Assembly: GCA_013792055.1 (NCBI GenBank)
Contig: VMSQ01000061.1
Location: 1 to 33,450 of the forward strand
Source of the DNA: Desulfobacteraceae bacterium
Lineage (GTDB): Bacteria; Desulfobacterota; Desulfobacteria; Desulfobacterales; ETH-SRB1
Direction: 5' to 3'
Length of the DNA stretch: 33,450 bases
A program made the position numbers and the translations under genes. Below are positions 6,555-27,311 of the stretch, one piece after another; position 1 is the stretch's first letter, and each line of letters opens with the position of its first letter. The notes under the pieces are model-generated. The model worked only from the letters and a program-made list of their open reading frames with translations. It ran no database searches and was not told the origin of the DNA.

Positions 6555-7808
6555 TTATTCTTTTACACGCTTTATAGCTGCTCCCAGACCGGCAAATTTC
6601 TTTTCAAGCGATTCATACCCACGATCCAGGTGATAGATACGATTTACCTCGGTTTTGCCCCTGGCAACAAGACCAGCCAGTATAAGCGAAGCGCTGGCTC
6701 TAAGATCAGTCGCCATAACCGGCGCGCCTGAAAGCATTTTAACTCCTTTTACCATTGCAGAATTACCGGCTATAGTAATATCAGCTCCCATTCTTTTTAA
6801 CTCGCTTACATGGATAAAACGGTTTTCAAATACTGTTTCAGATATCAGGCTTAGTCCCCCAGCAACAGACATCAGTACCATGAACTGTGCCTGCATATCA
6901 GTAGGAAAACCTGGATATGGGAGCGTTTTTAAATCAACACTTGCTATATCATCTATTCCCTGAACTCTAATATTCTTTCCATCAATTTTTATTATTGTCC
7001 CCGTTAAACCCAATTTGTGTATAACGGCTTCAAGATGACCGGGTTCACAACCTGAAATCTTTATATCTCCGCCAGTCAAAGCCGCTGCAATCATAAATGT
7101 TCCAGTTTCTATACGGTCGGGAATTATTGAAACCGATACAGGATTTAGAGAAGAAACTCCTATTATAGTGATTGTGGAGGTGCCTGCACCACGGATATCA
7201 GCACCCATTTTGTTTAAAACATCAGATAGAGCTACTATTTCGGGTTCACGGGCTGCATTATGAATAACTGTTCTTCCTTCCGCTAAAACAGCCGTCATCA
7301 TAATATTTTCGGTACCAGTTACTGTAGCTATATCTAAATAAATTTCGCTCCCTTCTAATTTATCGGCATAAGCTTCAACATAGCCGTGCTTTAATTCAAT
7401 GGACGCACCAAGGCATGCCAGAGCTTTAAGATGCAGATTAATTGGCCTGGCACCTATAGCACACCCTCCTGGCAATGATACCCTGGCTTTTTTCAGCCTG
7501 GCGACAAGAGGACCAAGAACCAATATGGAGGCACGCATTTTCCTCACCAGATCATAGGGAGCTTCATGATTTAAAATATTGCCCGCATCTATCTTAACAA
7601 CATCGCCATCTGTCTCAATTTTTGCGCCAAGATGTGAAAGAAGCAGTTTTATGCTCTCAATATCTTTTAGATTTGGAACATTTGAAAAAGTACACAATCC
7701 ATCAGTAAGTAGAGATGAAACCAGAATCGGAAGCGCAGCGTTCTTCGCTCCACTGATACTGACCTCACCCATAAGGGGTCGTCCTCCTTCAACTATAATC
7801 TTATCCAT
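6555..7808 (-). CDS. murA: UDP-N-acetylglucosamine 1-carboxyvinyltransferase
   Basis: 417 residues, normal for MurA. It catalyses the first committed step of peptidoglycan synthesis, transfer of enolpyruvate from PEP to UDP-GlcNAc, in the cytoplasm. Visible landmarks: SGAKNAALP with the substrate-binding Lys22, and the active-site loop [11 protein letters not shown] with Cys116, the PEP-binding cysteine that fosfomycin modifies. The C-terminal half has [14 protein letters not shown] and [13 protein letters not shown], also diagnostic. The start has only a modest AAGG upstream. It follows the terminator that closes the qrc operon, and its own promoter is not obvious in the 25 bases between the terminator and the start codon. 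Confidence 0.97.
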
Positions 7809-7833: not shown

Positions 7834-7880
7834 AAAAAAGCGCTTTACCACATTTTAACAATGAGATAAGCGCTTTTTTT
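7834..7880. terminator. Symmetrical intrinsic terminator after the qrc operon
   Basis: AAAAAAGCGCTT (7834-7845) and AAGCGCTTTTTT (7868-7879) are inverse complements flanking a 22-base loop. On the minus strand the hairpin ends in a T run, as expected for termination of the transcript ending with the small qrc gene. The loop is rather long, so efficiency is uncertain. Confidence 0.65.
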
Positions 7881-7907: not shown

Positions 7908-8066
7908 TTAGTGGTGATGGCCGCCTTTACCTTGTTTTGTATCAACAACAGCTTTTAAAATACAATAAGCCATCCCAAGACTAATTATAGTAAGGGCATA
8001 GTGCAAACCACCCATAAATACAATATGACTAAGATCCCAAACCCATTCAAATGAAAACGGTAACAT
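7908..8066 (-). CDS. Small membrane protein of the qrc operon (52 residues, undescribed)
   Basis: A short frame read directly from the minus strand: MLPFSFEWVWDLSHIVFMGG at the start, one hydrophobic helix (about residues 16-38), then a Lys/Gly segment and the C-terminus GKGGHHH. A strong AGGAGG lies 7 bases before the ATG, and the gene starts 11 bases after the qrcD stop, so it is translated as the fifth gene of the qrc operon. I know of no described Qrc subunit matching it. Small single-helix subunits accompany related complexes (for example HmcD of the Hmc complex), so an accessory or assembly subunit is a reasonable inference. It is conceivable that the tri-histidine tail binds metal. Confidence 0.8.
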   Translation of the reverse strand: MLPFSFEWVWDLSHIVFMGGLHYALTIISLGMAYCILKAVVDTKQGKGGHHH

Positions 8067-8077
8067 ATTTTAACCTC

Positions 8078-9310
8078 CTATGGATTTAATTCCTTTTCCT
8101 GAGGAAAAATTGGCAAATAACGGTATGACAATGCTATTACAATAATGCCGCCTGCAACCGGAAGAATAGTTGTTGCCACTTCCTGCCAGCTGGGGACATA
8201 CAAAAACCAGTTTTCAAATGTCATAACCGGATGGGCCATTACTTGCAGAACCATTACCCAGCGATTAATTAAAACACCAATACAGGCCAGCGATACAGCT
8301 GTAAACAACGCAGTAGAATTACTGCGCCCTTTTGGTGAAAGAAGTATTAGCGCTGGAATAATACCGCCGACAACAATCTCAGCTATAAGGATCCAAATTC
8401 CATAAAATGAATTGTCGGAGTAAAAATCCATAAATGTAAATCCTTTAGAAGGCGCCGTAACTGTAGCCCAGTACCAGGTATCAATAATTTTTGCAATAAT
8501 GTATGTTCCCATCATCCAGCCGGCTATCTTGGCCAGAAGATCTATAACATTTTGTTTGACAAGCTTCTTGCCTGTTATCTTCTCGGTAAGCCTTGTCACA
8601 AAAAGTGTAAAACAAGGTCCAAAGGCTGCCGCCGACCAGGTAAAGAGAAAGAAAGTCCATGGCCAGATAAACAATCCCTCTCTCACTGCAAAAGGACGAC
8701 CGTAAAGTACCCCGGCAACTCCACCAAGCGATCCCTGATGGAAAAAGGAAAGAAAAGCACCAGTCGCTGCAAAAATCGCCATAATTTCATGCATATTATG
8801 GCCTAGATTATGAAAGAATGGAACCTTGTCAATCTGTCGGTTTTCAAGAAGCAGTGGAATATACTCGATAACAAGAACACCAAAATAACATGTAAGACAG
8901 AATGCAACTTCGGTCAGCATAGAATGAACATTTGCATGCCAGAAAATAAACCATCCTCTTAAAGGCTGCCCAACATCAATTCCAAGTATCAACTGTGCTG
9001 AAGCATAGCATACAAACCCTATTACAACCGCGTAATTGATAATATTTTTCAGTTCATCTTTACCGATAATATATCTTAAAAACCCGGTAAAAAAAGCTCC
9101 ACCGCCCAGGGCAATAATCCCAAGGTCAGCCCAGATCCATAGGGCAAACCCATAGGAATCATTCATGTTTGTCTGGTTAAGTCCCTTTATCCAAACAAGT
9201 AACATGGCATAAACACCCCAAAGCACCACAGCACCGACTAAAGCGATCCCTAAGTAAAATTTGCCAATTGAACAGCGTTTAAGCCCCTTGGGTATTAATG
9301 CTGAATCCAT
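8078..9310 (-). CDS. qrcD: Quinone reductase complex, NrfD/PsrC-type membrane subunit QrcD
   Basis: 410 residues, almost all in about ten hydrophobic helices, in the NrfD/PsrC family. Such subunits bind (mena)quinone in the membrane. In Qrc it receives electrons from the periplasmic haem and iron-sulfur subunits and reduces menaquinone. Supporting features are the long helix string beginning about residue 20 (YLGIALVGAVVLWGVYAMLL) and the conserved family stretch FLSFFHQGSLGGVAGVLYG around residues 185-205. It is followed within 12 bases by the small protein gene and preceded by qrcC at 67 bases. Assignment to Qrc rather than another NrfD-type complex rests on the A-B-C-D gene order. Confidence 0.9.
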   Translation of the reverse strand: MDSALIPKGLKRCSIGKFYLGIALVGAVVLWGVYAMLLVWIKGLNQTNMNDSYGFALWIWADLGIIALGGGAFFTGFLRYIIGKDELKNIINYAVVIGFVCYASAQLILGIDVGQPLRGWFIFWHANVHSMLTEVAFCLTCYFGVLVIEYIPLLLENRQIDKVPFFHNLGHNMHEIMAIFAATGAFLSFFHQGSLGGVAGVLYGRPFAVREGLFIWPWTFFLFTWSAAAFGPCFTLFVTRLTEKITGKKLVKQNVIDLLAKIAGWMMGTYIIAKIIDTWYWATVTAPSKGFTFMDFYSDNSFYGIWILIAEIVVGGIIPALILLSPKGRSNSTALFTAVSLACIGVLINRWVMVLQVMAHPVMTFENWFLYVPSWQEVATTILPVAGGIIVIALSYRYLPIFPQEKELNP

Positions 9311-9377
9311 AAGCTATATACTCCTCAAAATTTGCTGTTATTTGTTATTAAAAAATCTTTATATTTCTTAATATATG

Positions 9378-10202
9378 TTAATGCTGCTGGACTGTTCTGT
9401 CTTCGTTTGCAAGATAATTGTCGCCAGCCCGTCGTACCCATTCCTTACTTGAAATATAGTAGACTTTGGGATTTGTACCAAGTCTCTCAAGTAAACGGAA
9501 TGCATTGGGATCACCTGGCCGCCCCCCATGCTTGTTATCAGGCTTAACCATTTGATTAACCTTATGATGAGGATTGTTCAGATCACCGAATGTAATAGCG
9601 CCGGCTGGACATGCCTGAGTACAAGAAGTCTGGTATTCATTCTCTTCGAGCTCTGTTCGCCCTTCCAGGAATGCCTTGTCCATTGCTAATTGATGTCTGT
9701 GGAAACAAAAACTGCATTTCTCTACAATACCTCTCATGCGTGCTGAAACATTCGGGCTCAGATATTTAGTCATTCCTTCCGGCCATACCGGATCCCACCA
9801 GTTAAAATAACGGGCATGATACGGGCATGCTCCCATACAATACCTGCATCCAAAGCACCGGGTATAAATCTGGCTTACAATCCCGGTATCATGGTTATAG
9901 TCTGTTGCGACTGCCGGACAAACAGATACACATGGCGAATGACCATGATATCCCTCACAGTGCATACATGGCCTGGGAAGATAGCAGATATCAGCATCAG
10001 GATAGGATTCCCCGTTTGCCAGCTTATAGACACGCATCCATGTAATGCTGTCAAGCTTGTCTGATTCATCTTCCTTGAAGGGCACATTATTCTCAGCCAT
10101 ACAGGCAACCATGCAGGCCCCACAACCAGTACAATTGTCCAGATTTATGACCATTCCATACTTTTTGGCTTTCTTGTTGTGTTTGCCTTCTTCTTTCATC
10201 AA
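9378..10202 (-). CDS. qrcC: Quinone reductase complex, periplasmic iron-sulfur subunit QrcC
   Basis: 274 residues with several ferredoxin-type clusters: CTGCGACMVAC (about residues 24-34), CMHC...CVSVC (about 79-94), CFGCRYCMGAC (about 115-125) and CSFC...CTQAC further on. This is the four-cluster arrangement of the DmsB/PsrB/NrfC family. In Qrc it carries electrons between the catalytic-type subunit and the membrane subunit. It has no evident signal peptide and is presumably exported with the Tat-signalled QrcB. The gene starts 15 bases after qrcB. Confidence 0.92.
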   Translation of the reverse strand: MMKEEGKHNKKAKKYGMVINLDNCTGCGACMVACMAENNVPFKEDESDKLDSITWMRVYKLANGESYPDADICYLPRPCMHCEGYHGHSPCVSVCPAVATDYNHDTGIVSQIYTRCFGCRYCMGACPYHARYFNWWDPVWPEGMTKYLSPNVSARMRGIVEKCSFCFHRHQLAMDKAFLEGRTELEENEYQTSCTQACPAGAITFGDLNNPHHKVNQMVKPDNKHGGRPGDPNAFRLLERLGTNPKVYYISSKEWVRRAGDNYLANEDRTVQQH

Positions 10203-10217
10203 AACCTCATATTCAAG

Positions 10218-12404
10218 TTATACTTTGGTCAGCCTAGCCCTTATTCCCCAAGCTGCATCAAGACCGGATACTGGATCTTCTGCCGGACCGATGAGTTCGT
10301 TAAAATTACATCCCTTACCAGCAAGGTATTTATCGTAGGCAGTATGGCCCAGTCCCCTTGGCAAAGCTATTATACCGGGCATAATTCCTTCATAAAGATG
10401 TACTTTAACCTTTGCCTTACCTCTTGGAGTATGTAAAGATGCATACCTGCCTTCAGTCAGACCCAACTCTTTACCTGTCTTTGGATTCACCTCAACGCAT
10501 GCAGCTTTGCCATTAAGAACTGTATCCTCTACAGCTTTTATTACAAAGGGCGGATCGCCAATATATCCATTCGCGAGTCTAATGGAGTCATATGGTATGA
10601 GTACAAGAGGATATGATGCTGTGCTGCCTTCAAGACTTACTGGACTAAAGTTGGAAAGTGATTCCATTGCCTTGGGATAAAAATTGAATTCGCCTGAAAC
10701 CGTTTTTGAATTCGAATCCGACCAAAAACCATTTTCCACCAATACATCCCATTTGGCGCCTAATGTTTCCTTAAGGCAGGCTTCATAGCTGTCCCAAGGA
10801 AATGCTTCTGCTATACTACCTCCCAGTGCTTTTGCTATGAGCATTATAGTATCTCCAACATTCTTTGTGCTAAACTGGGGTTTTACGACCGGCCTTGTCA
10901 GACCGATAATGTTTTTTTGCAACCCAGCTGTTGTTGGAACATCCTCATAGCGTTCGAGGCAAACATGATTAGGCAGGATTAAATCGGAATTGCTGGCAGT
11001 TTCATCCATGTATGATGAAAAACTTACAACAAACGGTATGCTATCAAATGCCTTCTTCATTGCTTTACTATCAGGCATTGAATATAAAGGATTTGCACCC
11101 GTAACAAAAAGTGCCTCAAGTGACCCATCTCCAGAATTAACAACCTCAGCCAGGCGGTTTAACAGAGATTTAGCATGGGGATATTCGCTGCCAGCTCCAT
11201 CTACACGTTCTTTTTGCACGCCATTTGTTGCAGTTTCATCCAAATTTACTTCAGGCCATTTAATATAATCAACCTCAGGGACAGCCCAAACACCACCTTG
11301 TTCATTTATATTGCCTACAAGAGCATTTAATGCATGCACTGCCATAAATTCATTAAGGCTGCCCGGTGTGCTTCCCTGCCCTCGGCCACAGATTGCCAAT
11401 GGTTTTGAGGCACTGGCGAATGTCTTAGCCAGTGAAACTATGGAAGCACTATCTATCCCTGTTATTTGTGAAACCTTATCGGTGCTGTACTCGTTTTGTA
11501 CTAACTTCTTGAATGATTCAAAACCAGATGACTGGCTAATCTTTTGGGAATGTTGCGAGTTAGTTATAATTACATTTGCAAGACCTAATGCTAAGGCTGC
11601 TTCAGTGCCGGGCTTTATTGGAATCCATTTATCGGATTTTGCTGCTGTATTTGACAGGCGAGGTTCAATCTGAACGACTTTTTTGCCATTGGCTTTCCAA
11701 GTACTGTTGGCTTTAAACATACGCACCGGCGAGCCCCATCCATCAATTATCCCGCTTCCAAAGCTTAATATAAAATCAGCATTCTCGGCATCAAATCCGG
11801 CCTGAGCATTTACTCCCTGCATAAGTTGCAGTGTCATCTTGTATGAGTCTTGCATGGAGGGCATAGTCATAAAATTGGGTGAACCATATGCTGTCAGAAA
11901 TCTTTTAAAAAGATTGGGTATAGTCCCGCTATCTGCATTAACAATAGAGCCGACTGAATGAGATTCGCCTTTTGATCTTATCTCAGAAAGCTTTTTTGCA
12001 ACCTCAGAGATAGCTTCATCCCAGGATATTTTTTCCCATTTTCCTTCGCCTCTTTTCCCCACTCTTTTTAATGGAGACTTTACACGTGTTGGGCTATAAA
12101 GTAACTGATGTCCCGATAAACCCAGCACACATATCCCGCCGGCGTTTACCGGATATCCTTTCATGCCCTCTATCTTAACAACGCGGTCATCAACTTTGCG
12201 AACACTAATACCGCAACCACCTGGGCAGAGAGTGCAGACCGAATTAACATAACTGTATTCACCATCCGGCGGAACAGGAGTCCACGGCCAATTCTGCGAC
12301 CATATAGATGCATCATCCATAAGTTTCCAGGGCAATGGCGTAATAGCTGTACCCGCCGCACCACCAATTATAAATGACAAGAAACTTCTTCTGCCTACTT
12401 TCAT
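10218..12404 (-). CDS. qrcB: Quinone reductase complex, molybdopterin-oxidoreductase-like subunit QrcB
   Basis: 728 residues. It begins with a twin-arginine signal (GRRSFLSFIIGGAAG), so it is exported folded to the periplasm. A [4Fe-4S] motif CTLCPGGCG...GGICVLG lies near residues 57-95, followed by the molybdopterin-oxidoreductase fold (for example LSFGSGIIDGWGSPVRMFKA and CGRGQGSTPG). In characterised Qrc this subunit belongs to the molybdopterin family but contains no molybdenum, serving as scaffold for electron transfer; whether that holds here cannot be seen. The start codon has an AGGGG site. It sits between qrcA and qrcC with gaps of 52 and 15 bases. Confidence 0.92.
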   Translation of the reverse strand: MKVGRRSFLSFIIGGAAGTAITPLPWKLMDDASIWSQNWPWTPVPPDGEYSYVNSVCTLCPGGCGISVRKVDDRVVKIEGMKGYPVNAGGICVLGLSGHQLLYSPTRVKSPLKRVGKRGEGKWEKISWDEAISEVAKKLSEIRSKGESHSVGSIVNADSGTIPNLFKRFLTAYGSPNFMTMPSMQDSYKMTLQLMQGVNAQAGFDAENADFILSFGSGIIDGWGSPVRMFKANSTWKANGKKVVQIEPRLSNTAAKSDKWIPIKPGTEAALALGLANVIITNSQHSQKISQSSGFESFKKLVQNEYSTDKVSQITGIDSASIVSLAKTFASASKPLAICGRGQGSTPGSLNEFMAVHALNALVGNINEQGGVWAVPEVDYIKWPEVNLDETATNGVQKERVDGAGSEYPHAKSLLNRLAEVVNSGDGSLEALFVTGANPLYSMPDSKAMKKAFDSIPFVVSFSSYMDETASNSDLILPNHVCLERYEDVPTTAGLQKNIIGLTRPVVKPQFSTKNVGDTIMLIAKALGGSIAEAFPWDSYEACLKETLGAKWDVLVENGFWSDSNSKTVSGEFNFYPKAMESLSNFSPVSLEGSTASYPLVLIPYDSIRLANGYIGDPPFVIKAVEDTVLNGKAACVEVNPKTGKELGLTEGRYASLHTPRGKAKVKVHLYEGIMPGIIALPRGLGHTAYDKYLAGKGCNFNELIGPAEDPVSGLDAAWGIRARLTKV

Positions 12405-12456
12405 AGATTCTACCCCTTACAATGTGTAGCTCTTAAACTAATCGGCTTTAAAGTTT

Positions 12457-13179
12457 TTACTTATGGCATACAAAACACGCCTCTTTAACTGTCTTAATAC
12501 TTGCTTGATTGCCGGTCTGTTTCTCATAAGGTAATGGAGCCCAGTTTAATGGCCATGGGAGTGTCTCAACATCTGTTTTGATTTCCTTTGTAGCATGACA
12601 TTCAGCACAATCATCCATCTTCATACGGTCCCATGTATTACTCTTTAAACCAGAAATGTTTTTCCCCCAGATATCCCGGCTGTAACCTGTAATTCTGTTT
12701 TCTTCATAAACTCTTGAATGTTCGGATTCGCCAATGTGTTCATGGCATGTACTGCACTCCATCTCCGCCTTTTTGACATGGGCTGCATGTGAAAAGAATA
12801 CGCAGTCCGGCTGTCTTGCATATACCAGCCATGGAACCTCTCTGCCATTTGCCACATAGTCATTAACAAATTTTATTTCGTTAGGATTTTCTCCCTGAAC
12901 ATCCCCATGACATTCAACGCACTGCGCAAGTTTTGGAACTCCAGAAAAACTTCCATCCTCACGGAAGAAATGGCAGCTTTCACATCCCTCATCCACAGCT
13001 TCAACATGAAGTACATGGTTAAAATCTATGGGCTGTTTTTTCTGGGAATAGAGAAGCTTAGGGAATATCACCCATCCTAAAACAAGACTTGCAGCAAGCC
13101 CAAGAATGAAAAAAAGGATAATTGGCCCGGCAGCCCCGTCAGCGGAAACTTCTTTAGCTTTATCATCTTGTGTACTCAT
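12457..13179 (-). CDS. qrcA: Quinone reductase complex, multihaem cytochrome c subunit QrcA
   Basis: 240 residues. An N-terminal membrane anchor (about residues 18-42, GPIILFFILGLAASLVLGWV) precedes a periplasmic domain with five canonical haem-binding motifs: CESCH, CVECH, CSTCH, CAECH and CFVCH. A sixth cysteine-histidine pair, CVFFSH, occurs at the place where another haem might sit. Family members are described as hexahaem, so this sixth site may be non-standard or lost. In the complex QrcA takes electrons from periplasmic cytochrome c3. It is the first qrc gene, with GGAG five bases before the ATG, and follows the ccsBA haem-attachment genes, which its product requires. Confidence 0.92.
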   Translation of the reverse strand: MSTQDDKAKEVSADGAAGPIILFFILGLAASLVLGWVIFPKLLYSQKKQPIDFNHVLHVEAVDEGCESCHFFREDGSFSGVPKLAQCVECHGDVQGENPNEIKFVNDYVANGREVPWLVYARQPDCVFFSHAAHVKKAEMECSTCHEHIGESEHSRVYEENRITGYSRDIWGKNISGLKSNTWDRMKMDDCAECHATKEIKTDVETLPWPLNWAPLPYEKQTGNQASIKTVKEACFVCHK

Positions 13180-13324
13180 GAAAACTCCGTCAAGCTTGGT
13201 TGATGTTTGAACAGAATCTAAAACTCCAATACCCTTAACATATAAACAACAAAAAATATTCTTTACTAAAATGCGGTAGAAAATAAACTGCTAAAGATAT
13301 TTAAGTAGGAAAATAATTTTAATT

Positions 13325-13353
13325 TCATTACCTTTAGATTTCATTTTTGTCAA
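13325..13353 (-). promoter_or_regulatory. Weak candidate promoter for the qrc operon
   Basis: On the minus strand a perfect TTGACA (13348-13353) is followed after 17 bases by TAATGA (13325-13330), a poor -10. It lies about 145 bases upstream of qrcA in an AT-rich gap. Read-through from ccsBA is an alternative. Confidence 0.3.
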
Positions 13354-13433
13354 GTAAAATTATTGCATTTGGAAATAGTTAAAGAAGATTTAAAATGTTT
13401 TCGATGCTGTTATTCCTGGATATAACTATAAAT

Positions 13434-13454
13434 CATGAACCATGAACCTTGAAC
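13434..13454. repeat. Short 7-bp tandem repeat
   Basis: Three head-to-tail heptamers (CATGAAC, CATGAAC, CTTGAAC) lie in the ccsA-qrcA gap, 18 bases past the ccsA stop. A different heptamer array occurs at 32114-32137. Confidence 0.75.
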
Positions 13455-13471
13455 CTTTATTATTTATTTTT

Positions 13472-14308
13472 TCACTGAGCATAACTGTGCAAACCCGGCA
13501 GAAGATTCACACCAAAATATGTAAACATAACAGCCAAAAAACCTATAATAGAAACATATGCAATCCTTTTACCATGCCAACCCCGCATCATTCTGGCATG
13601 TAATAATGTTGCATAAATAAACCAGGTAATTAATGACCATGTTTCTTTAGGATCCCATGACCAGTAGCTCCCCCAGGCGGAGTTAGCCCAAACAGCTCCT
13701 GTTATTATTCCAATAGACAAAAATAAAAAACCAAATGTCACCATTTGATGTGTCAGATTATCCAGGACCGACAGCTCGGGGAAATGTGAAAGCAAATAGC
13801 TTTCCCCGTCCTTATCCCTCTGCTTAAAAAGATACATCAAGCTTATGCCAAAAGCTATAGCAAAAGCAGCATAGCCAAGGAAACAAGCCATAACATGAGC
13901 AATAAGCCAGTTGCTTTTTAATGCAGGGATTAAAGGCTGTATCTGATCTCTTATATTGGGAGAAAGGGAAGCATAAGCTATGGAAAGAAATACAATAGGC
14001 ATAGCAAAAGCCCCTATTATTCTATTTTTATAAGTTCGCTCAATTACAAGGTAAATAACAGCTATGGTGCAGGAAAAAAAGACCAGGGATTCATACATAT
14101 TTGATAAGGGTGCATGCCCGATGCCAAGCTTATAAGACTCAACCCATCGCATAATAATACCGGCAGCATTGCCCATGGCGCCCAAAAAAGCTGTCCAGGT
14201 CGCCAGCAAGCCGGGAAGCGTTTTTTTGAAGATCCACGAAGAAATATATAATATTGCCGCCAGCCCGTAAACAAATGTTACAACCGATAACAAATTTGAA
14301 CTATCCAT
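13472..14308 (-). CDS. ccsA: Cytochrome c biogenesis protein CcsA (system II haem handling)
   Basis: 278 residues with about eight membrane helices. The tryptophan-rich WWD haem-handling motif is present as WGSYWSWDPKETW near residues 210-222. Histidines HAPLSNMYESL (about 64-75) and LLHARMMRGWHG (about 237-248) correspond to the conserved haem-ligand positions of the family. With CcsB/ResB it transports haem and attaches it to CxxCH motifs on the outer face of the membrane. An AAGGA site lies about 9 bases before the ATG. It follows ccsB after an 84-base gap filled by a repeat, and precedes qrcA. Confidence 0.95.
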   Translation of the reverse strand: MDSSNLLSVVTFVYGLAAILYISSWIFKKTLPGLLATWTAFLGAMGNAAGIIMRWVESYKLGIGHAPLSNMYESLVFFSCTIAVIYLVIERTYKNRIIGAFAMPIVFLSIAYASLSPNIRDQIQPLIPALKSNWLIAHVMACFLGYAAFAIAFGISLMYLFKQRDKDGESYLLSHFPELSVLDNLTHQMVTFGFLFLSIGIITGAVWANSAWGSYWSWDPKETWSLITWFIYATLLHARMMRGWHGKRIAYVSIIGFLAVMFTYFGVNLLPGLHSYAQ

Positions 14309-14324
14309 GTTTTATGTCCTTTTT

Positions 14325-14392
14325 AGCTTCGCTCCGCAATTGGTCGAGTGGTCGAGTATTTTCCCACTCGACTAATTTCCTGCTCGACTATG
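14325..14392. repeat. GTCGAGT-type repeat between ccsB and ccsA
   Basis: AGCTTCGCTCCGCAATTGG is followed by two GGTCGAGT units (14342-14357), then CCACTCGACTA and GCTCGACTA, giving inverted GTCGAG/CTCGAC pairs that can fold. The left part matches, in inverse orientation, the repeat at 33273-33374 (CAATTG, GCGAAGCG and GGTCGAGT/CTCGACC units). It fills almost the whole gap. Confidence 0.75.
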
Positions 14393-15760
14393 CTACAGCC
14401 TGGCAAGGTTCTGTGAAAGCCTTTTTACCCTGGCCTGCATTCCCAGTTTATTCTTATTTGCGGTACCTGCCACAATTACCTTATAGTTATTTCCACTTTT
14501 CGCAATCTCAATACAAAGCCTCTGATGTGACATGAAAAAAGTACCAAAACAGCCGATAATCATCACTATGAATCCTGAGTAAACAACCAGGACGCCAGGA
14601 TCGCTTGTAACCTGAAGCCCGGTATAATGTCTATTATCGTACTCAGTTACTGAAAAAATAAAATCTCCTTTTCTCATCTTATCAAAGCTATCAAAATGCA
14701 AAGGCAGTATTATGTTAATAGAATTTCCGTCTTTTTTGTTAAGAATTCCGATAAAAGTTTCACCAAGACTAAGGCTTTTGTAATTAAATGAATCCCTATA
14801 ATCCTTAATAACAAGAGTCCCCATTCCCTCAGGAATTTCAATAGGCTGCCCTATTTTTGCCGTTTTCTTATATGCCATACCGGTTTCCCGGCTCACGATA
14901 TTTAATGTAATTTTCTCTGGAGGAAGCATTCCATAACTTGACTGGAATAAATTTATCCCTTTATAACGAAGAGGATCATTAACAATAATATCCTCCTTTA
15001 AAACAGATTTTCCATCTTCTATAATAGATAAGGTTGAGCGGAATTCTTTTGGTGCTCCTGTTTCATAAAAGCTCACACTGAAATCATCACACCGTATTCC
15101 AAAATCCAAATTATGTATTTGTCCGGTTTTTCTTAATTCAATACTATTTACTGTCTCCCCTTCTGGAATGTTAACAAACCCTTCAAACCCAAAGATGGAA
15201 CCTGTAAGAGCACCTATCAAAAGTAGAATGATGCTGAAATGTACAGCGTAAACGCCAAGACGAGTCCAGCGTCCTTTTTCGGCAAAAATAAAAAATCCCT
15301 TATCTGTCTGCTCTACTCTGCAATAACTAAATTTTTTAGAAGCAATATCCTCACATTTCTTCTTGAGTTCCTTAATGGGACGTTTGGATGTGAATTCCTC
15401 TTTAGTAGAAAGGCTTCTGAACTTTGCGACACTAAATGGCGGGATTTTGACGAATACTATCTTCCATGTAGTAGAAAACCTGTTTAAAGAACAAATAATA
15501 ACATTAATGGTCAGCATAAGAAGTAAAAGCTGAAACCACCATGAATGGTACATATCAAAAATGTTTAAAACTGAAAGAATTTTGTAAAAAAATTCTCCAT
15601 ACTCATGAAAGTAAGCGGCAGGGCTTTGATTCTGGGGAATAAACGTTCCAACCATAGAAGTTACAGCTAATGACAGCAAAAGAACAACTGTAAGTCTAAT
15701 GGACGCAAAAAAATTCCATAATCTGCTAAAAAAATCTGCAGATTCATTCTCTTTCTTCAT
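14393..15760 (-). CDS. ccsB: Cytochrome c biogenesis protein CcsB/Ccs1 (ResB family)
   Basis: 455 residues in the ResB family. Three N-terminal helices (about 20-40, 70-95 and 165-190) are followed by a large periplasmic domain (about 195-405, with DPLRYKGINLFQSSYG, typical of the family), and a final helix near 410-430 (VLVVYSGFIVMIIGCFGTFF). It is the partner of CcsA in system II cytochrome c maturation. The gene starts 10 bases after the acidic hypothetical gene, so the two are probably in one transcript. Confidence 0.93.
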   Translation of the reverse strand: MKKENESADFFSRLWNFFASIRLTVVLLLSLAVTSMVGTFIPQNQSPAAYFHEYGEFFYKILSVLNIFDMYHSWWFQLLLLMLTINVIICSLNRFSTTWKIVFVKIPPFSVAKFRSLSTKEEFTSKRPIKELKKKCEDIASKKFSYCRVEQTDKGFFIFAEKGRWTRLGVYAVHFSIILLLIGALTGSIFGFEGFVNIPEGETVNSIELRKTGQIHNLDFGIRCDDFSVSFYETGAPKEFRSTLSIIEDGKSVLKEDIIVNDPLRYKGINLFQSSYGMLPPEKITLNIVSRETGMAYKKTAKIGQPIEIPEGMGTLVIKDYRDSFNYKSLSLGETFIGILNKKDGNSINIILPLHFDSFDKMRKGDFIFSVTEYDNRHYTGLQVTSDPGVLVVYSGFIVMIIGCFGTFFMSHQRLCIEIAKSGNNYKVIVAGTANKNKLGMQARVKRLSQNLARL

Positions 15761-15770
15761 TATTTATCCT

Positions 15771-16250
15771 TTATTCATCAATATCAAAGGACTCATCATC
15801 CTCTGCAATTAATGGAGTTCCTTTAACTAAATCCACGTCATCAAATTCTTCCTCAAAATCATCTTCAAGCAATTCATCAATCTCTTTAGATTCTTTAATC
15901 TCTTTAGATTCTTTTTTTATATCTTTAAAAGACTCCGGCTCTTTTTTCTTCTTTGTTAATAAATCAAGATCATCAAACAAAAGTTCTATGGATTGCTTTT
16001 TTTCTTCGGACATTGTAATAACCGACTCAGCTATTTTATCGGCATATAAACTTGGAGGATATAATTTTTCGGTTCTTAATACAGAAATTAGTGCTTTCTT
16101 TCCTTTTTTTATAGCGGATTTAATAGACTCAACATCATATTTTTCCTCTCTGAGCAACAATAAGACTTTTGTATCATCTAATTCTGCAAATTCTTTGATT
16201 ATCAACTCTCTTTGATCATCGTTGTTAAAAATAAGATATTTTTGTTTCAT
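15771..16250 (-). CDS. Conserved-looking acidic hypothetical protein upstream of ccsBA
   Basis: 159 residues; I do not recognise the family. The first ~95 residues look folded, with alternating helices (MKQKYLIFNNDDQRELIIKE, REEKYDVESIKSAIKKGKKA). A short repetitive lysine/glutamate segment follows (IKKESKEIKESKEIDEL), then a very acidic tail rich in D and E (about 125-159). There is no signal peptide or membrane helix, so it is probably cytoplasmic. It is the first gene of the transcript leading to ccsB (10-base gap). A role linked to haem attachment is possible from position only. Confidence 0.7.
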   Translation of the reverse strand: MKQKYLIFNNDDQRELIIKEFAELDDTKVLLLLREEKYDVESIKSAIKKGKKALISVLRTEKLYPPSLYADKIAESVITMSEEKKQSIELLFDDLDLLTKKKKEPESFKDIKKESKEIKESKEIDELLEDDFEEEFDDVDLVKGTPLIAEDDESFDIDE

Positions 16251-16392
16251 GACTTGTTTCCCTCAATACCTTAAATATAAGAAATTTATTTTTAAAAACC
16301 CTTTAAGCTTTTTACTAAATCTCAAATTTTTCTGGAAATCACAATACAACAAAGAAGTCAATATCTATGGTTAATAATAACAATAAAAAATA

Positions 16393-16421
16393 TTGACCTG
16401 AATTCTGCAAAATGATATTTA
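16393..16421 (+). promoter_or_regulatory. Promoter of the tRNA-Ser genes
   Basis: TTGACC (16393-16398), a 17-base spacer and TATTTA (16416-16421), ending 13 bases before the first tRNA. Position and spacing are right for a sigma-70 promoter. Confidence 0.6.
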
Positions 16422-16434
16422 GAATTTTTTATTT

Positions 16435-16522
16435 GGAGGGATGGCCGAGTGGCTTAAGGCGGCGGTCTTGAAAACCGTTGAGTGTCAAAGCTCCGTGGGT
16501 TCAAATCCTACTCCCTCCGCCA
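16435..16522 (+). tRNA. tRNA-Ser, anticodon TGA
   Basis: The acceptor stem GGAGGGA (16435-16441) pairs with TCCCTCC (16512-16518), followed by G and an encoded CCA. The anticodon stem-loop CGGTCTTGAAAACCG shows anticodon TGA (reads UCN codons). A long variable arm and the TTCAAATCC T-loop confirm a class II serine tRNA of 88 nt. Confidence 0.95.
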
Positions 16523-16537
16523 ATTTAAACTGATTTG

Positions 16538-16704
16538 AAGACACCTTTGAAAAATGTTTCCCGCTTGCAGCGGGATTCAAGTTCAAGGAAGGCGATCCCG
16601 CTGCAAGCGGGATTAAATGCAGGAATACATTGAGTATTTCGAGGCTTAAAATTTGAGCCTGACGCCTAAATTGGACAAAAGGGGACGTTTTGCAAAGGTG
16701 TCTT
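16538..16704. mobile_element. TIR-bounded element (MITE-like) between two tRNA-Ser genes
   Basis: Perfect 12-bp inverted ends AAGACACCTTTG (16538-16549) and CAAAGGTGTCTT (16693-16704) extend imperfectly inward for about 12 more bases (ATGTTTCCC against GGGGACGTTTTG). Inside are two strong palindromes, CCCGCT-TGC-AGCGGG (16560-16574) and ATCCCGC-TGCAA-GCGGGAT (16595-16613). The 167-bp unit has no coding capacity. Its right end touches the first base of the second tRNA. No clear target duplication is seen, so a folded spacer in a tRNA precursor is an alternative. Confidence 0.6.
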
Positions 16705-16797
16705 GGAGAGATGGCCGAGCTGGCTGAAGGCGCTCGCCTGCTAAGCGAGTGTGGGGTGAAAACTCCACCGAGGGTTCGAATCCCTCTCTCTCCGCCA
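16705..16797 (+). tRNA. tRNA-Ser, anticodon GCT
   Basis: The acceptor stem GGAGAGA (16705-16711) pairs with TCTCTCC (16787-16793), followed by G and an encoded CCA. The anticodon loop CTCGCCTGCTAAGCGAG gives GCT (reads AGC/AGU). The long variable arm (GTGGGGTGAAAACTCCAC) and GGTTCGAATCC T-arm are typical. Length is 93 nt. Confidence 0.96.
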
Positions 16798-16815
16798 ATT
16801 TTATTATACAGGAAT

Positions 16816-16850
16816 AAAAAAAGGAGACAGCAATCGCTGTCTCCTTTTTT
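16816..16850. terminator. Bidirectional terminator between tRNA-Ser and sat
   Basis: AAAAAAAGGAGACAGC (16816-16831), loop AATC, and GCTGTCTCCTTTTTT (16836-16850) form a perfect 15-bp stem with A and T runs on either side. It can serve the plus-strand tRNA transcript and the minus-strand sat transcript, which converge here. Confidence 0.9.
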
Positions 16851-16867
16851 GTTAGGGATATACACTA

Positions 16868-18151
16868 TTATTTCATTGAAGTAGCCTCAGCATGACTCTG
16901 CATCTTGATCTCAACCTTCTCAGTCAGGCCTGCATAGTACTCGCGGAGGATATCCAGTACCTCATTGCGGCCGAAGTGATCGGGAATTTCACTACCATCA
17001 GAGAGCATCTTGCGCAGCTTTGTTCCGGAAAGGACAACACGATCTTCCTTGCCGTGCGGGCAGGTTCTGAGCGATGCCATTCCGTCACACTTGAAGCAGT
17101 AGAATGTCCAGTCGATCTTTAACGGTTGACACAGAAGTCTTTTTGCTGGATCATCCGGCATGGGAATCTCATCAAAGATATCCTGTGCATCAAACAGTCC
17201 ATAAAAGTCACCAACACCAGCGTGATCGCGACCGATGATCATCCGGTTGACGCCGTAGTTCTGACGGAAAGTAGCATGAAGCAGGGCTTCTCTCGGGCCT
17301 GCATAGCGCATGTCAAGGGGATATCCGCCCTGAAGGATATGATCTTTAACAAAGTAACCGTCAATAAGCTTATTGATGCATTTGATACGGGTTTCAGCCG
17401 GAATATCGCCAGGTTTCAGGGACCCGACCAGGGAGTGAATGAACACACCGTCGCATACCTCGCAGGCAATCTTGGCCAGAAATTCATGTGACCTGTGCAT
17501 CGGATTCCTGAGCTGAAGCGCTGCGACCTTGCTCCATCCTCTTTCATCAAAATGAGCGCGTGATTGGGTGGGCGTCATATAGGTGCCGGCAAACTTTTTG
17601 GGAAAATCACCTTCACTCAATACCTTAACAGGACCGGCCAGATTGTATCCTTTCTGATTCATAACCATGATAACGCCGGGATGATCTTTAGGAGCAATTT
17701 TCCAGAAATTATCGCCCTGGGATTCTTCGCCTTTGCCCTTGTAAACCTTTTCGCATTCCCATTTTTTATCAGCCTCGGTCATCTCATACTTCTCGGTGAT
17801 CTTCATGGTTGCCATGATTTCTCCGGAAGCATTCTGAAGGGCGATTTCATCACCCTTATGGATGCTGTCTGCATCTTCTTTAGAAACAGACAAAGTTACA
17901 GGTACCGGCCAGAATGTACCGTCACTCAGCAGAAATTTCTCGCAAACACCCTTCCAGTCAGCCTTGGGCATAAAACCTTTTAACGGGCTGAATCCTCCGA
18001 TACCCATCATAATAAGATCGCCGTTCTCACGACCCGAAATGGGAATGGTTTTCAAAGTTTTTGCCTTTTCCTTCTCTGCTACCAGTTCTTTTCCATGCAG
18101 TAAGCAACAAACTAACCCTTTTCCTCCATGTGGTGGTACTAATTTTGACAT
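16868..18151 (-). CDS. sat: Dissimilatory sulfate adenylyltransferase (ATP sulfurylase)
   Basis: I choose the ATG at 18151 (427 residues, [10 protein letters not shown]) over that at 18160, because AAAGGAG stands about 10 bases before the former but touches the latter. The enzyme makes APS from sulfate and ATP in the cytoplasm, the activating step of sulfate respiration. Seen: [12 protein letters not shown] with the QxRNPxHxxH nucleotide-binding motif, [11 protein letters not shown] with GRDHAG, and a cysteine set CFKC...CPHG near residues 350-365 that binds zinc or cobalt in characterised prokaryotic enzymes. There is no kinase domain. It lies 90 bases past qmoC on the same strand, so it probably shares the apr-qmo transcript, and ends at a strong terminator. 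Confidence 0.97.
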
Positions 18152-18240
18152 TAGTTTCATCTCCTTTTTTTATTTTTCATTTACTACATTAAAGTTTAAT
18201 TAATCTCTATCTTTTCACATTAACCATAAGCTTTATATAT

Positions 18241-19371
18241 TTATCTGTTCGCATACTCTGCATACGCCATAGCAACTGTCCTGTAAACAAGATGAGCAAG
18301 TTTGGAAAACGGCAGGAAAGCAAACAGGTTGAATACAAATACAAGATGAGCAAAATACATAAAGTATGAAAGACCGGCAGCACCTGCAAGCCTTGTCATT
18401 TCAGTAAGCATTCCAGTCAAACCAAGACCCAGGACGAGTCCTAAAAGGTACCAGTCTTTATAGCTGGTTGACTGATCAGTTCTGGCTAACCGGTTTTTTA
18501 TCATCAGGATACTACCGATAACCAGGGCTACACCACTAACATTGGCAAGCCATTTAACCGGGTTTAATTGTGAATAAGGGCCATGTATCTGGAAAACATA
18601 TAATACAACAAAAAAGATATTTGTTACAATAAAAAGTCCTATAAATGAATAAAATACCATAAGATGGGCTGTAGCGCGGTCTTTGTTCTCTTCACACTCT
18701 GAAAACTTGCTGTGTTTTAATATTGTAGGTAAAATGCGAACAAGTGCCTGAATAAAAGCAACGGCTTCCACTCTATCTTTATTGGTCTTCCCTTCACGCA
18801 CCGCACTCTCATGTATGTCTTTTACAAATCTTTTAATTCCCATCGCAAAGATAGCTATCACCCAGACAGTAAGCGGTACAAAAATCATATCAACCAGCCA
18901 TGAGGAAAAGAAATTAGCATGACTAATCTCTTCACCGCCGGGACTAAAATTCATTAGACCGGTAATATAACCCAGAACCAGAAAAATAACTACCGGAATA
19001 AGCAAAAGAACAGGCAGCTTTTCCGGTTCATTAACTGCTTTAGCCAGCCATTTAGGTACAGCATACTCTGAAATAGCATAAGAACGAATAGCTCCCAATA
19101 CATCACCTGGTTTTGCACCGCGGGGACATTTTGTTGAACAGTCTCCACACTGATGACAAAGCCATATATCCAGGTTGCTTACAAGTTTATCCTTCAAACC
19201 CCATTGTGCAGCTATCATCTCTTTTCTTGGAAAAGGTTTATTATCCGGAGAAATAGGACAAACCACCGAACAGGTAGCGCACTGGAAGCATTTCTTCACA
19301 TCATCGCCCCCAAGCCTGATAATTTCTTTAACAAAATTTACATCAGGCTCAACCAGGTATTTGTCAGCCAT
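18241..19371 (-). CDS. qmoC: Quinone-interacting membrane-bound oxidoreductase subunit QmoC
   Basis: 376 residues, an HdrC-HdrE type fusion. The N-terminal soluble part has two [4Fe-4S] motifs: CFQCATCSVVCP (Cys 28, 31, 34, 38) and CHQCGDCSTKCP (Cys 72, 75, 78, 82). A membrane part from about residue 120 has about six helices of cytochrome b/NarI type, expected to hold haem b and the quinone site. It links menaquinol oxidation to QmoAB and AprBA. The gene follows qmoB after an 80-base gap that contains a 14-bp hairpin. Confidence 0.95.
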   Translation of the reverse strand: MADKYLVEPDVNFVKEIIRLGGDDVKKCFQCATCSVVCPISPDNKPFPRKEMIAAQWGLKDKLVSNLDIWLCHQCGDCSTKCPRGAKPGDVLGAIRSYAISEYAVPKWLAKAVNEPEKLPVLLLIPVVIFLVLGYITGLMNFSPGGEEISHANFFSSWLVDMIFVPLTVWVIAIFAMGIKRFVKDIHESAVREGKTNKDRVEAVAFIQALVRILPTILKHSKFSECEENKDRATAHLMVFYSFIGLFIVTNIFFVVLYVFQIHGPYSQLNPVKWLANVSGVALVIGSILMIKNRLARTDQSTSYKDWYLLGLVLGLGLTGMLTEMTRLAGAAGLSYFMYFAHLVFVFNLFAFLPFSKLAHLVYRTVAMAYAEYANR

Positions 19372-19398
19372 ATTAATACCTCCTATCGACTACTGATT

Positions 19399-19435
19399 AT
19401 TGAAGACAGGCTATTATAAACAGCCTGTCTTCAAT
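19399..19435 (-). promoter_or_regulatory. Intercistronic hairpin between qmoB and qmoC
   Basis: ATTGAAGACAGGCT (19399-19412) and AGCCTGTCTTCAAT (19422-19435) form a perfect 14-bp stem with a 9-base loop. No T run follows on the minus strand, so it is not an intrinsic terminator; an mRNA processing or stability element is the likely reading. It lies 27 bases upstream of the qmoC start. Confidence 0.7.
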
Positions 19436-19451
19436 TGAATTTCCAAATTAT

Positions 19452-21788
19452 TTAGAATCCTTTGAATGGGTTCGGGCCCAGCTCCACAACCTGCTTTACA
19501 AAGGCATTAATCATCTCAGGCAGCTTGTCATATTCATCAATTGCAATCTCGAACTGCGTTACCCTCTCTTTTTCAAGTGCCAGACTTTCCAGCGCATCAC
19601 CTATTTTTTCCATTCTGATGGACGCGAGTTCACTCCCTTTAACAAAGTGGCACTGATAGTCATCACCATGCCTGCAACCAAGCAGAAAAGCTCCGTCCAT
19701 ACCCTGAGAGAGCGCATCTTTAATCCAGATCACATTCACGGACCCAAGGCATCGAACCGGAATAAAACGAACCTGTGAAGAATACGATAGTCTGTTCATG
19801 CCGGCTATATCCAGGGCAGGGTATGCATCATTTTCGCAAACCAGACCGAGAATCCTGAAGGGCGGTTCCTCGTAATCATCTGCAGAAGGAACTCCTATTG
19901 ATTTTACCATTGAACCAATGCTGTCAACATTGTAATCCGCAAATCCTATAATACGCTCAGGGCATGCACCCATGCAGGTACCGCAGCGTCTGCACCTTGT
20001 CGGATTCGGTTTTGGGGTTCCTTTTTCATCATCATCAAGAGCGCCAAATGGGCATTCTTCTGTACAGCGCTTGCACTGCGTACATCTCTGAAAGAAAAAG
20101 TCAGGAAATGTCATATCGCCCGACCTTGGATGTACTGCAACACCCCTGTTCACTGATTCAATGCACTGAATAGCTTTAAGAGCGGCACCTGCTGCATCTT
20201 CAACTGTTTCTTCAATCGTCATGCTCCGGCGAACGCCTCCGGCAGCATAAATGCCTGTTCTCTGTGTTTCATATGGAAAGCATATAAAATTTGAGTCACA
20301 ATATCCGTTAAACAGACCGATTTCTCGGAAAGCAGGCCCCTGTCTGTATGCCAGGTTTACCACCGGATCATCAGCAGTTGCCGGAACCATACCTGTTGCA
20401 AGCACAACCATATCAGCTTTAAGCTGAATCTTCTCACCAAGAAGGGTGTTGTCAGCATCAACGGTAAGCCCTCCGCCGCTTTGACCTACACTGACCACAT
20501 CGCCTTTAGTCAAAAAGATTCCCTCATCCTGCTGTATGCTCTTGTAAAAATTCTCCCACAGGCCGGGCGTCCTCATGTGCTGATAAATGATCTGTGCCTT
20601 GCCATCCGGATAATCTTCACGCACATACTTTGCCTGTTTTAATGCTACTAAACTTGTAACAGAACCGGCAAAGTCAAAGTCACTGTCATCACCCTTCCCA
20701 GGGCCCTGAATAAACACGACAGATTTGGCTTCCTTTCCATCCGACGGTCTTACAATCTTACCTTTAGCGGCGATCTGCTCAAACTGATGGTTGGTTACAA
20801 CATCGGCAATTTTGCCAAGGCCGAGATATCCGAGCTCATCGCCTTCAGGAGTATATGGCCGCCAGCCTGCGGCAAGTATTACTGCCCCGAATTTTTCGCC
20901 GTTTGGATCAATTTGTAAAATATCAACCTTACCCTTGTTGTATTCCTGGTATAGCTCAAACTGTTTGTCCTTATCAAGCTCCTTACCGCTCTCGTCAAAC
21001 TTCATCTCCTGAGGAAGAGGAAAAGGAACGTCAAACTCAATTTTTTCTCCGGGTTTCTTCAATGTCACAACAAACTCGCCCGGCTGGCCGGCAATACGAG
21101 CAACTACCGTTTCAGTCTTGATTGTTATATTTGGGTTGGCCTCAGCCTCCTTAATTTTTCCATCAATTATCGGGGGAATCAGGCTGTCATACGGGTTTTT
21201 CATAGGAAGCTGCTTGCGGAGTTTGGATGCATAGCCTCCAAGAACGGTTTCTTTCTCTACTATGGTTACATCATAGCCTGCCTTGGCAGCATCCAAAGCC
21301 GCAGATATGCCGGCAATACCACCACCGATAACAAGGATTTTCCTTGTAAAAGTCTCCACCTTATAGGGTTCAGGCAGAGCTATTTTCTTTACCTTAACCA
21401 TTCCCATCTTAAGGTAATCTTCAGCCAGCATCTGAAGGCTGTCAAAATGTATGCCGTCATCTTTCTGTTCCTCTGTTACAACCGGATACTTTGACCTTGG
21501 ATGTGACCAGACCACCTGTTCCCTCAGGTTAACCCTGTCAATTATACAGCCGTCAAACTTGAAGATATCATAGTTGACCCTGCGTGAACATGCTCCAATA
21601 ACGATTGTGTTAACGCCTTCATCTGCTATATCTTTTTTTATAACCTCGACGCCTTCCTTTCCGCAGAGAAAGGAATGCGTTTTTACTGGGACTTTCTCCC
21701 CTTCGGGCACACCGCACAAACCCTTTATATCAAGTGCATCCCCGATTCCACAACCTGTGCAGATATATACACCGTACTTTTTGTCCAT
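19452..21788 (-). CDS. qmoB: Quinone-interacting membrane-bound oxidoreductase subunit QmoB
   Basis: 778 residues, HdrA-like with an MvhD-like tail. Order: an N-terminal HdrA-type region with CTGCGIGDAL (about residues 11-20), a FAD-binding Rossmann fold starting ILVIGGGIAGISAALDAAKA (about 150-170), two ferredoxin motifs CTQCKRCTEECP and CRRCGTCMGACP (roughly 585-635), and a C-terminal MvhD-type domain with RCLGSVN and LLGCRHGDDYQC. In Qmo it bridges the flavin-based part and AprBA, and flavin-based electron confurcation has been proposed for the family. It starts 10 bases after qmoA. Confidence 0.95.
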   Translation of the reverse strand: MDKKYGVYICTGCGIGDALDIKGLCGVPEGEKVPVKTHSFLCGKEGVEVIKKDIADEGVNTIVIGACSRRVNYDIFKFDGCIIDRVNLREQVVWSHPRSKYPVVTEEQKDDGIHFDSLQMLAEDYLKMGMVKVKKIALPEPYKVETFTRKILVIGGGIAGISAALDAAKAGYDVTIVEKETVLGGYASKLRKQLPMKNPYDSLIPPIIDGKIKEAEANPNITIKTETVVARIAGQPGEFVVTLKKPGEKIEFDVPFPLPQEMKFDESGKELDKDKQFELYQEYNKGKVDILQIDPNGEKFGAVILAAGWRPYTPEGDELGYLGLGKIADVVTNHQFEQIAAKGKIVRPSDGKEAKSVVFIQGPGKGDDSDFDFAGSVTSLVALKQAKYVREDYPDGKAQIIYQHMRTPGLWENFYKSIQQDEGIFLTKGDVVSVGQSGGGLTVDADNTLLGEKIQLKADMVVLATGMVPATADDPVVNLAYRQGPAFREIGLFNGYCDSNFICFPYETQRTGIYAAGGVRRSMTIEETVEDAAGAALKAIQCIESVNRGVAVHPRSGDMTFPDFFFQRCTQCKRCTEECPFGALDDDEKGTPKPNPTRCRRCGTCMGACPERIIGFADYNVDSIGSMVKSIGVPSADDYEEPPFRILGLVCENDAYPALDIAGMNRLSYSSQVRFIPVRCLGSVNVIWIKDALSQGMDGAFLLGCRHGDDYQCHFVKGSELASIRMEKIGDALESLALEKERVTQFEIAIDEYDKLPEMINAFVKQVVELGPNPFKGF

Positions 21789-21798
21789 GTATAACCTC

Positions 21799-23079
21799 CT
21801 ACCTCTTCACCATGGTTTGAATAGCCTTAAGAGCCATACCGGTAGCATTCTGGTTTGATGTTATAACGTCTGCCGGTTTGTTGGCACAACCAGCAGCAAA
21901 CATACCACCTTTTTCAAAATCATTAACAATAAAGCCTTCCTCACTGTATTGCAGGTCACCGGTCGGAAGCTTTGTATCTAAAGCTGTCGGCTGCATGCCG
22001 GTAGCTAAGACAACCATATCCACCTCTTGCTTTATCTTTTCTCCTGTCACAGCATTCTCTGCAACCACGGTGATATTTTTGGAGCCCGGATCTTCACTGA
22101 CTTCTGCCACCTTGCCTTTAATAAAAAAGACATTTTCATCCTCTTTTATCTTCTTATAAAATTTTTCATATCTCTGACCCGGAGCCCTAACATCGATATA
22201 AAAGATATAAACCTTGGCATCGGGAAACCGTTCCCTGACATATGTGGCCTGTTTCAAAGAAGCCATACAGCATATATAGGAACAATAGGGAAGATGATTC
22301 TCATCTCTTGATCCTGCGCACTGAACAAAAGCAATGCTCTCAGGCTCTTTATTGTCTGACGGCCTAAGGATCTTTCCTTTGGTAGGCCCATTTGGAGCTG
22401 CAAGCCTTTCCATCATCATATTGGTAATGATGTTGTCGTACTTTCCGAATCCGAGATTATCTATCTTGGTAGCATCATATGGAACCCATCCAGTAGCCCA
22501 TACAATGGCTCCGACTTTCAGATTTATGGTTTTAGCTCCCATGTTAAGGTCAATTGCGCTGTATTTGCATGCTTCAACACATTTACCGCATTCCGCGCCC
22601 TTGCATACAGATGCATCTATCACATAACGCATGGGGAAAGACATCTCATTGGGCCTAAAGATGGCTTTTGTTTTGTCCATATTAAAGTTGAACTCGTTAT
22701 TCCTGTCAACAGGACATACCCCAACGCACTCATCGCAAGCTACACAATTTTCATTAACAAATCTTGAATTCAATTTTATTGAAACATTATAACTGCCTGA
22801 TATTCCATCAACTTTTTCTACTTCCGCCAGTGTGAAGACTTTTATTCTTGGATTGTCCTTTATCCTCCTGAAGTTGATCTCAAGACCACAGGTAGGAGGA
22901 CAAAGCTTTGGGAAATACTGGTTCAACTGTGCAACTCTTCCACCCAAGTAAGGATTTTTTTCGACCAGGAATACTTCGTAACCTACTTCGGCAGCTTCAA
23001 GAGCAGTAGTTAACCCGCTTATCCCTCCGCCAACAACCAAAATACTTCCGCTAGCAGGGGCTGCTTTCTCTTCTGTCAT
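21799..23079 (-). CDS. qmoA: Quinone-interacting membrane-bound oxidoreductase subunit QmoA
   Basis: 426 residues, HdrA-like flavoprotein. A FAD-binding fold begins ILVVGGGISGLTTALEAAEV (about residues 13-32), followed by CPPTCGLEINFRRIKDN (about 60-75), then ferredoxin-type cysteines CVACDECVGVCP and CKGAECGKCVEAC (about 110-175), and a second nucleotide-binding half ending ATGMQPTALD...GMFAAGCANKPAD. It is cytoplasmic and partners QmoB. The GGAGGG site precedes the ATG. The gene is separated from aprA by 278 bases holding a terminator and a 25-bp inverted repeat, so it may have its own expression level. Confidence 0.95.
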   Translation of the reverse strand: MTEEKAAPASGSILVVGGGISGLTTALEAAEVGYEVFLVEKNPYLGGRVAQLNQYFPKLCPPTCGLEINFRRIKDNPRIKVFTLAEVEKVDGISGSYNVSIKLNSRFVNENCVACDECVGVCPVDRNNEFNFNMDKTKAIFRPNEMSFPMRYVIDASVCKGAECGKCVEACKYSAIDLNMGAKTINLKVGAIVWATGWVPYDATKIDNLGFGKYDNIITNMMMERLAAPNGPTKGKILRPSDNKEPESIAFVQCAGSRDENHLPYCSYICCMASLKQATYVRERFPDAKVYIFYIDVRAPGQRYEKFYKKIKEDENVFFIKGKVAEVSEDPGSKNITVVAENAVTGEKIKQEVDMVVLATGMQPTALDTKLPTGDLQYSEEGFIVNDFEKGGMFAAGCANKPADVITSNQNATGMALKAIQTMVKR

Positions 23080-23141
23080 GCTATCCCTCCATGCTTTTAA
23101 TTTTTCGATTTGGTTAAAAACTGATAATCATCTGTATTAGC

Positions 23142-23209
23142 TCAATTAGTTTGATTGTACTGATTAAACAAAAAGCCGATCCAATAATCAGAACAATCAA
23201 ACCAATTGA
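23142..23209 (-). promoter_or_regulatory. Large inverted repeat in the qmoA leader
   Basis: Arms 23142-23166 and 23185-23209 (25 bases each, 18-base loop) match as inverse complements except at two positions, one of which becomes a G-U pair in the minus-strand RNA. It starts 62 bases upstream of the qmoA ATG and 71 bases after the aprA terminator. No T run follows, so it is probably not a terminator; an operator, RNA stability or processing element is more likely. Confidence 0.75.
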
Positions 23210-23274
23210 ACATATCGAAATAAAAAGGGAACAGACTATTTGGCAAATATTAAATCTTATAGAAAATAAATTAA

Positions 23275-23308
23275 TAAAAACCTCCAGGCATCTTGCGATG
23301 CCTGGAGG
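23275..23308 (-). terminator. Intrinsic terminator/attenuator after aprA
   Basis: On the minus strand CCTCCAGGCATC-GCAA-GATGCCTGGAGG forms a perfect 12-bp stem followed by TTTTTATTAA. It begins 49 bases after the aprA stop. It can end the aprBA transcript or let part of it continue to qmo. Confidence 0.9.
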
Positions 23309-23357
23309 CGAATAATATTCGACTATTTAATAAATAATTAATAATCTAGTCGATCTT

Positions 23358-25331: not shown

Positions 25332-25405
25332 ATTTTATCCTCCTTAAAAAAATATAATTCTTAAAATTATTTTATTTTAATAAATCTTAACAAACTTCAG
25401 CCTGC

Positions 25406-27296: not shown

Positions 27297-27311
27297 TACA
27301 GGTTTTACATT

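Follow-up and report, generated by a model that had tools for sequence, protein, structure and literature searches.

The Qrc complex is a central, electrogenic entry point for electrons from H2 and formate in sulfate respiration. This menaquinone reductase has been described as consisting of four subunits, QrcABCD (PMC6303296, PMC13059093, PMC8076601). In a 2026 study only qrcABCD was deleted and complemented in N. vulgaris, and the enzyme was purified by way of a tag on QrcD (PMC13059093). Here we analyzed a short open reading frame (ORF), provisionally named qrcE, that directly follows qrcD in a 33,450-nucleotide (nt) stretch of Desulfobacteraceae DNA (GCA_013792055.1, contig VMSQ01000061.1, positions 1 to 33,450; the window). 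The operon in the window resembles the described system in carrying qrcABCD, with QrcB, QrcC and QrcD each scoring above the cut-offs of their NCBIfam equivalogs (NF041783, NF041782 and NF041784), but it adds a fifth conserved gene after qrcD, which in other lineages is unlinked. A preliminary description of the window had noted that no Qrc subunit of this kind was known to be described, and in agreement we found none in the family libraries or in the three Qrc papers cited above. Neither a named fifth subunit nor fitness data for one was found in the literature, the founding 2010 Qrc paper lying outside the coverage of that search.

The ORF is unannotated, and it is a real conserved gene. Of 146 Desulfobacterales genomes searched by tblastn, 133 gave a match, mostly full length. 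Twelve of the 13 genomes without a match also lacked QrcD, and the remaining one (G118, 73% complete) held a truncated QrcD match. Among 80 named genome loci retrieved using a QrcD query, qrcE lay directly downstream of qrcD in 78, and a Shine-Dalgarno-like site was present upstream of 77 of these 78 homologues. In nine loci the gene overlapped the end of qrcD, five by one base at the stop codon and four by 20. The two exceptions were a locus that stops at the contig end (L219) and a locus with no small ORF in the 400 nt after qrcD (L200, JAUVTO010000034.1), nearly all sampled close relatives of which carry qrcE. The median ratio of nonsynonymous to synonymous substitution rates (dN/dS) was ~0.12 in a codon comparison of 787 unsaturated pairs. 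Conservation, adjacency and this ratio together ruled out a chance or spurious ORF. The earlier proposal that the qrc operon has a fifth gene was upheld, since qrcE follows qrcD across the order and in several lineages beyond it. The local signals were also read correctly in the preliminary description: the 52-residue ORF with its AGGAGG site begins 11 nt after qrcD, on the minus strand, which had been left unstated, and the AGGAGG overlaps the qrcD stop codon (8078-8080). The terminator placed there after the ORF corresponds to a hairpin of -19.8 kcal/mol (z -6.17; 0 of 200 shuffles equally stable), a position that fits a putative end of the operon. At four loci (L183, L205, L224 and L232) QrcD itself carries a C-terminal extension of ~25-30 residues right before the small gene, and these extensions end in a recurring (E/D/K)L(S/K)PA(E/Q/G)x motif.

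Practically all sampled genomes with Qrc also encode QrcE, which tracks the complex. We built a phylogenetic profile from 395 genomes of the phylum, species representatives of which some are incomplete, by searching each with a profile of the small protein and with the QrcD model. QrcD was present in 80 genomes and the small protein in 79 of these; the sole exception (G147) is 66% complete and has its qrcD close to a contig end. The 315 genomes without QrcD yielded no small-protein match below an E-value of 1e-3, and one marginal match at 0.007 (G414). Because related genomes are counted here, fewer than 79 events are independent, although the set covers many families. As a control we used DsrP, which marks dissimilatory sulfite reduction. 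It was present in 246 of the 395 genomes, and comparison of the lists left 174 of these without QrcD. If the small protein were a marker of sulfate or sulfite respiration, then it should occur among these 174 genomes. It occurred in none of them, which indicated that it tracks Qrc rather than sulfate respiration.

About half of the QrcD lineages have no similar ORF directly after qrcD. A divergent homologue stands alone elsewhere in these genomes, still tracking QrcD, in varying neighborhoods that include rpsU/ksgA-like, tatC-like, sugar-nucleotide and ruvB-like genes (neighbors named by eye). This unlinked form follows the pattern LPW(D)xPW.DxxHxxFFxxxYxxLxxxGxG.....KT..DLKKG..HH, and with a 50-residue profile its E-values are modest, ~1e-6 to 1e-12. 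Profile-profile comparison of the linked and unlinked sets gave 99.2% (E 9e-20), and the two are therefore one family; two separate families were ruled out by the same comparison. On the QrcD tree, linkage switched at least three times, and co-occurrence persisted through these switches. One of four raw linkage changes was not real, because the gene at that locus (L063), scored as unlinked under a 400-nt limit, actually lies ~440 nt from qrcD. The unlinked lineages include the top-scoring genomes for the QrcD model, which we infer are probably desulfovibrios.

The linked proteins share the motif M[FL]PFxFEWxWDxxHxxFxGGLxYALxxxGxGxxYCxxKxxxDT...HH. Six positions do not vary across 27 diverse homologues (P3, E7, W8, W10, F17 and G19). 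Desulfobacterales sequences also share an invariant H14 and hardly vary at D11, G29, G31, C35 and K38. Constraint lies in the N-terminal segment and the helix, and the His/Lys-rich tail is variable. The single hydrophobic helix anticipated from the window was recovered by AlphaFold, run on 36 sequences, as one helix spanning residues 3-44, with a mean predicted local distance difference test score (pLDDT) of 83. Lys and Arg residues numbered 0 before the helix and 151 after it in 78 homologues, which by the positive-inside rule suggests a topology with the N-terminus outside and the C-terminus inside. At one locus (L224) qrcD naturally reads through in frame into the small ORF, the stop being read as Gly and serving as linker only. 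The AlphaFold model of this QrcD and QrcE pair had a predicted template modeling score (pTM) of 0.68, with the small helix at pLDDT ~66-77. The QrcD part found its best structural match in ActC of alternative complex III (ACIII). No Pfam, NCBIfam or PHROG family matched QrcE beyond isolated chance matches at E 0.05 or worse, and a profile search of the PDB returned no relative.

As a kind, small accessory subunits with one helix are already known; the QrcE family is new. In the Hmc complex, the HmcD position is likewise taken by a short ORF with one helix, immediately downstream of a gene of the NrfD family, and the comparison with HmcD drawn in the preliminary description stands as an analogy of position and size. 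It does not stand as homology. Small ORFs near hmcC in four relatives (e.g. LHDFMLHTxSITY...) lack the PxxxEWxW of QrcE, and the QrcE profile had no match in genomes with an HmcC-like protein but no QrcD. Homology to HmcD was rejected on the different motif and the absent profile match. ACIII, whose subunit ActC resembles QrcD, offers a second comparison. ActG and ActD are small cofactor-free membrane subunits of that complex, and ActG, with one predicted helix, was detected by mass fingerprinting only (PMC5928083). QrcE shares their lack of cofactors, small size and membrane location, but ActD has two helices where QrcE has one, and ActG is missing from some act clusters whereas QrcE is present in practically all Qrc genomes. 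No homology to ACIII subunits was found by sequence, the QrcE profile having no significant match to ACIII chains in the PDB. ActH of Rhodothermus ACIII was missed when the gene cluster was read and was found only by mass spectrometry (PMC5928083). It is a precedent for an overlooked subunit, but ActH is periplasmic, has no membrane helix and is unrelated in sequence to QrcE.

We predict, with a probability of roughly 0.68, that QrcE is a small stoichiometric single-helix subunit of the Qrc membrane module beside QrcD, with a structural or tuning role. This is the simplest reading of a cofactor-free, strongly constrained helix that is obligate with one complex. It rests on the co-occurrence, which stands at 79 of 80 against 0 convincing matches in 315 and persists when the gene is unlinked, on the adjacency, the invariant residues, the topology and the single long predicted helix, and on the match of the QrcD fold to a subunit of a complex that itself has small cofactor-free membrane subunits. 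By analogy, the helix would pack beside QrcD. The topology read from the sequence would place the short N-terminus, acidic and aromatic (P, EW.WD..H), on the periplasmic side and the Lys/His tail on the cytoplasmic side. The conserved aromatic segment may then sit at the periplasmic membrane surface, where QrcC would dock and quinone would bind. There QrcE could help QrcD and QrcC stay together around the quinone site, perhaps along with the QrcA anchor. Since no cofactor motif is present, its part would be structural or tuning rather than electron transfer. Binding of QrcE to QrcD, and its position there, are suggested by analogy only. Somewhat doubtful in our estimation is the further proposition that Qrc has five subunits in all sulfate reducers that possess it, the fifth being an essential single-helix protein on which coupling (at the quinone site or in the proton path) depends, and one overlooked in model desulfovibrios owing to the distance between its gene and the operon there.

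Several observations weigh against a fifth subunit. Qrc purified from N. vulgaris, both native and recombinant, was reported to show four subunits on gels and to be active in liposomes (PMC13059093). A 6-kDa band is easily missed on gels, and if N. vulgaris has the unlinked gene, like its probable relatives here, then that gene would have stayed undeleted and deletion and complementation of qrcABCD would have missed it. The joint QrcD and QrcE model gave no interface evidence. The small gene was not found in G147, which is incomplete, or at L200, which was checked near qrcD only, and both have QrcD. Finally, obligate co-occurrence alone cannot separate a subunit from an assembly factor.

The main rival to the subunit reading is a factor dedicated to Qrc that assists assembly, insertion or stability in the maturation of QrcD and QrcC and is not retained in the finished complex. 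Such a factor would give the same obligate co-occurrence and adjacency, it would agree with the four subunits described for purified Qrc, and the gene's free movement to new positions in half the lineages would suit it. But the very strong constraint over most of a 50-residue helix and the translational coupling at the operon end suit a stoichiometric partner at least equally, and no chaperone-like or export motif was found in QrcE, so we regard an assembly factor as unlikely. Small single-helix proteins often regulate membrane complexes, and QrcE could instead be a regulator, or a linker into a supercomplex with a partner such as Qmo, a periplasmic hydrogenase or formate dehydrogenase, outside the core of Qrc. 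The variable, His/Lys-rich cytoplasmic tail would be compatible with such a role. Presence in essentially all Qrc genomes of diverse lineages exceeds what is expected of a condition-specific regulator, however, and the constraint falls on the N-terminal segment and helix instead of the tail, which makes this explanation improbable. An ordinary neighbor gene or non-coding ORF unrelated to Qrc, suggested by the frequent spuriousness of such short genes and by the lack of a family model match, is refuted by the low dN/dS, the adjacency and the co-occurrence kept when the gene is unlinked.

The mechanism of Qrc is currently being dissected using a four-gene construct, and, given a fifth gene that co-occurs universally, the present description of the complex may be incomplete. 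Heterologous expression of four qrc genes could fail or yield a destabilized enzyme. Because an unlinked copy is predicted in model desulfovibrios, tagged strains and mutant fitness data that already exist could be used to put the idea directly to the test.

Table 1. Features of the qrc operon and its downstream boundary in the window.
Feature	Coordinates	Strand	Details
qrcE (provisional name), small gene	7908..8066	minus	52 residues, one membrane helix; MLPFSFEWVWDLSHIVFMGGLHYALTIISLGMAYCILKAVVDTKQGKGGHHH
Shine-Dalgarno AGGAGG (CCTCCT on plus)	8074..8079	minus	7 nt before ATG (8066)
qrcD, NrfD-like integral membrane subunit	8078..9310	minus	NF041784, 679.5 bits vs cut-off 570
qrcC, iron-sulfur subunit	9378..10202	minus	NF041782, 438 bits vs cut-off 400
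qrcB, molybdopterin-oxidoreductase-like subunit	10218..12404	minus	NF041783, 579 bits vs cut-off 440
qrcA candidate, membrane-anchored multihaem cytochrome c	12457..13179	minus	position and motifs, not family search
Intrinsic terminator-like hairpin	7834..7879	minus	between qrcE and murA
murA	6555..7808	minus	next gene after the hairpin

The true start of qrcC probably lies slightly inside the longest ORF, as the NF041782 model begins at residue 15. The qrcA candidate contains several CxxCH motifs and a hydrophobic segment at its N-terminus. With genes named by eye, the minus strand from 7908 to 25837 carries aprB, aprA, qmoA, qmoB, qmoC, sat, two cytochrome c biogenesis genes (one ResB-like, one CcsB-like), qrcABCD and qrcE, so that adenosine 5'-phosphosulfate (APS) reduction, its quinol donor complex and Qrc adjoin one another within 18 kb on the same strand.

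Elsewhere in the window, a 126-residue ORF on the minus strand (16485-16865; GERGIRTLGG... GVGFEPTEL) is not a gene: lying antisense, it crosses tRNA-Ser(gct) (16705-16797) and reaches into tRNA-Ser(tga) (16435-16522). A near-identical stretch recurs at ~409-576, 1464-1589 and 27273-27300, reading ...QYKRDFHFRFDKLRGMRSLLR in one frame and MRSLLRFN at the third place. It adjoins tandem paralogous ORFs at 566-814, 817-1458 and 1486-1785 (VMLDRDLAELYGVET), and looks like a repeated element.
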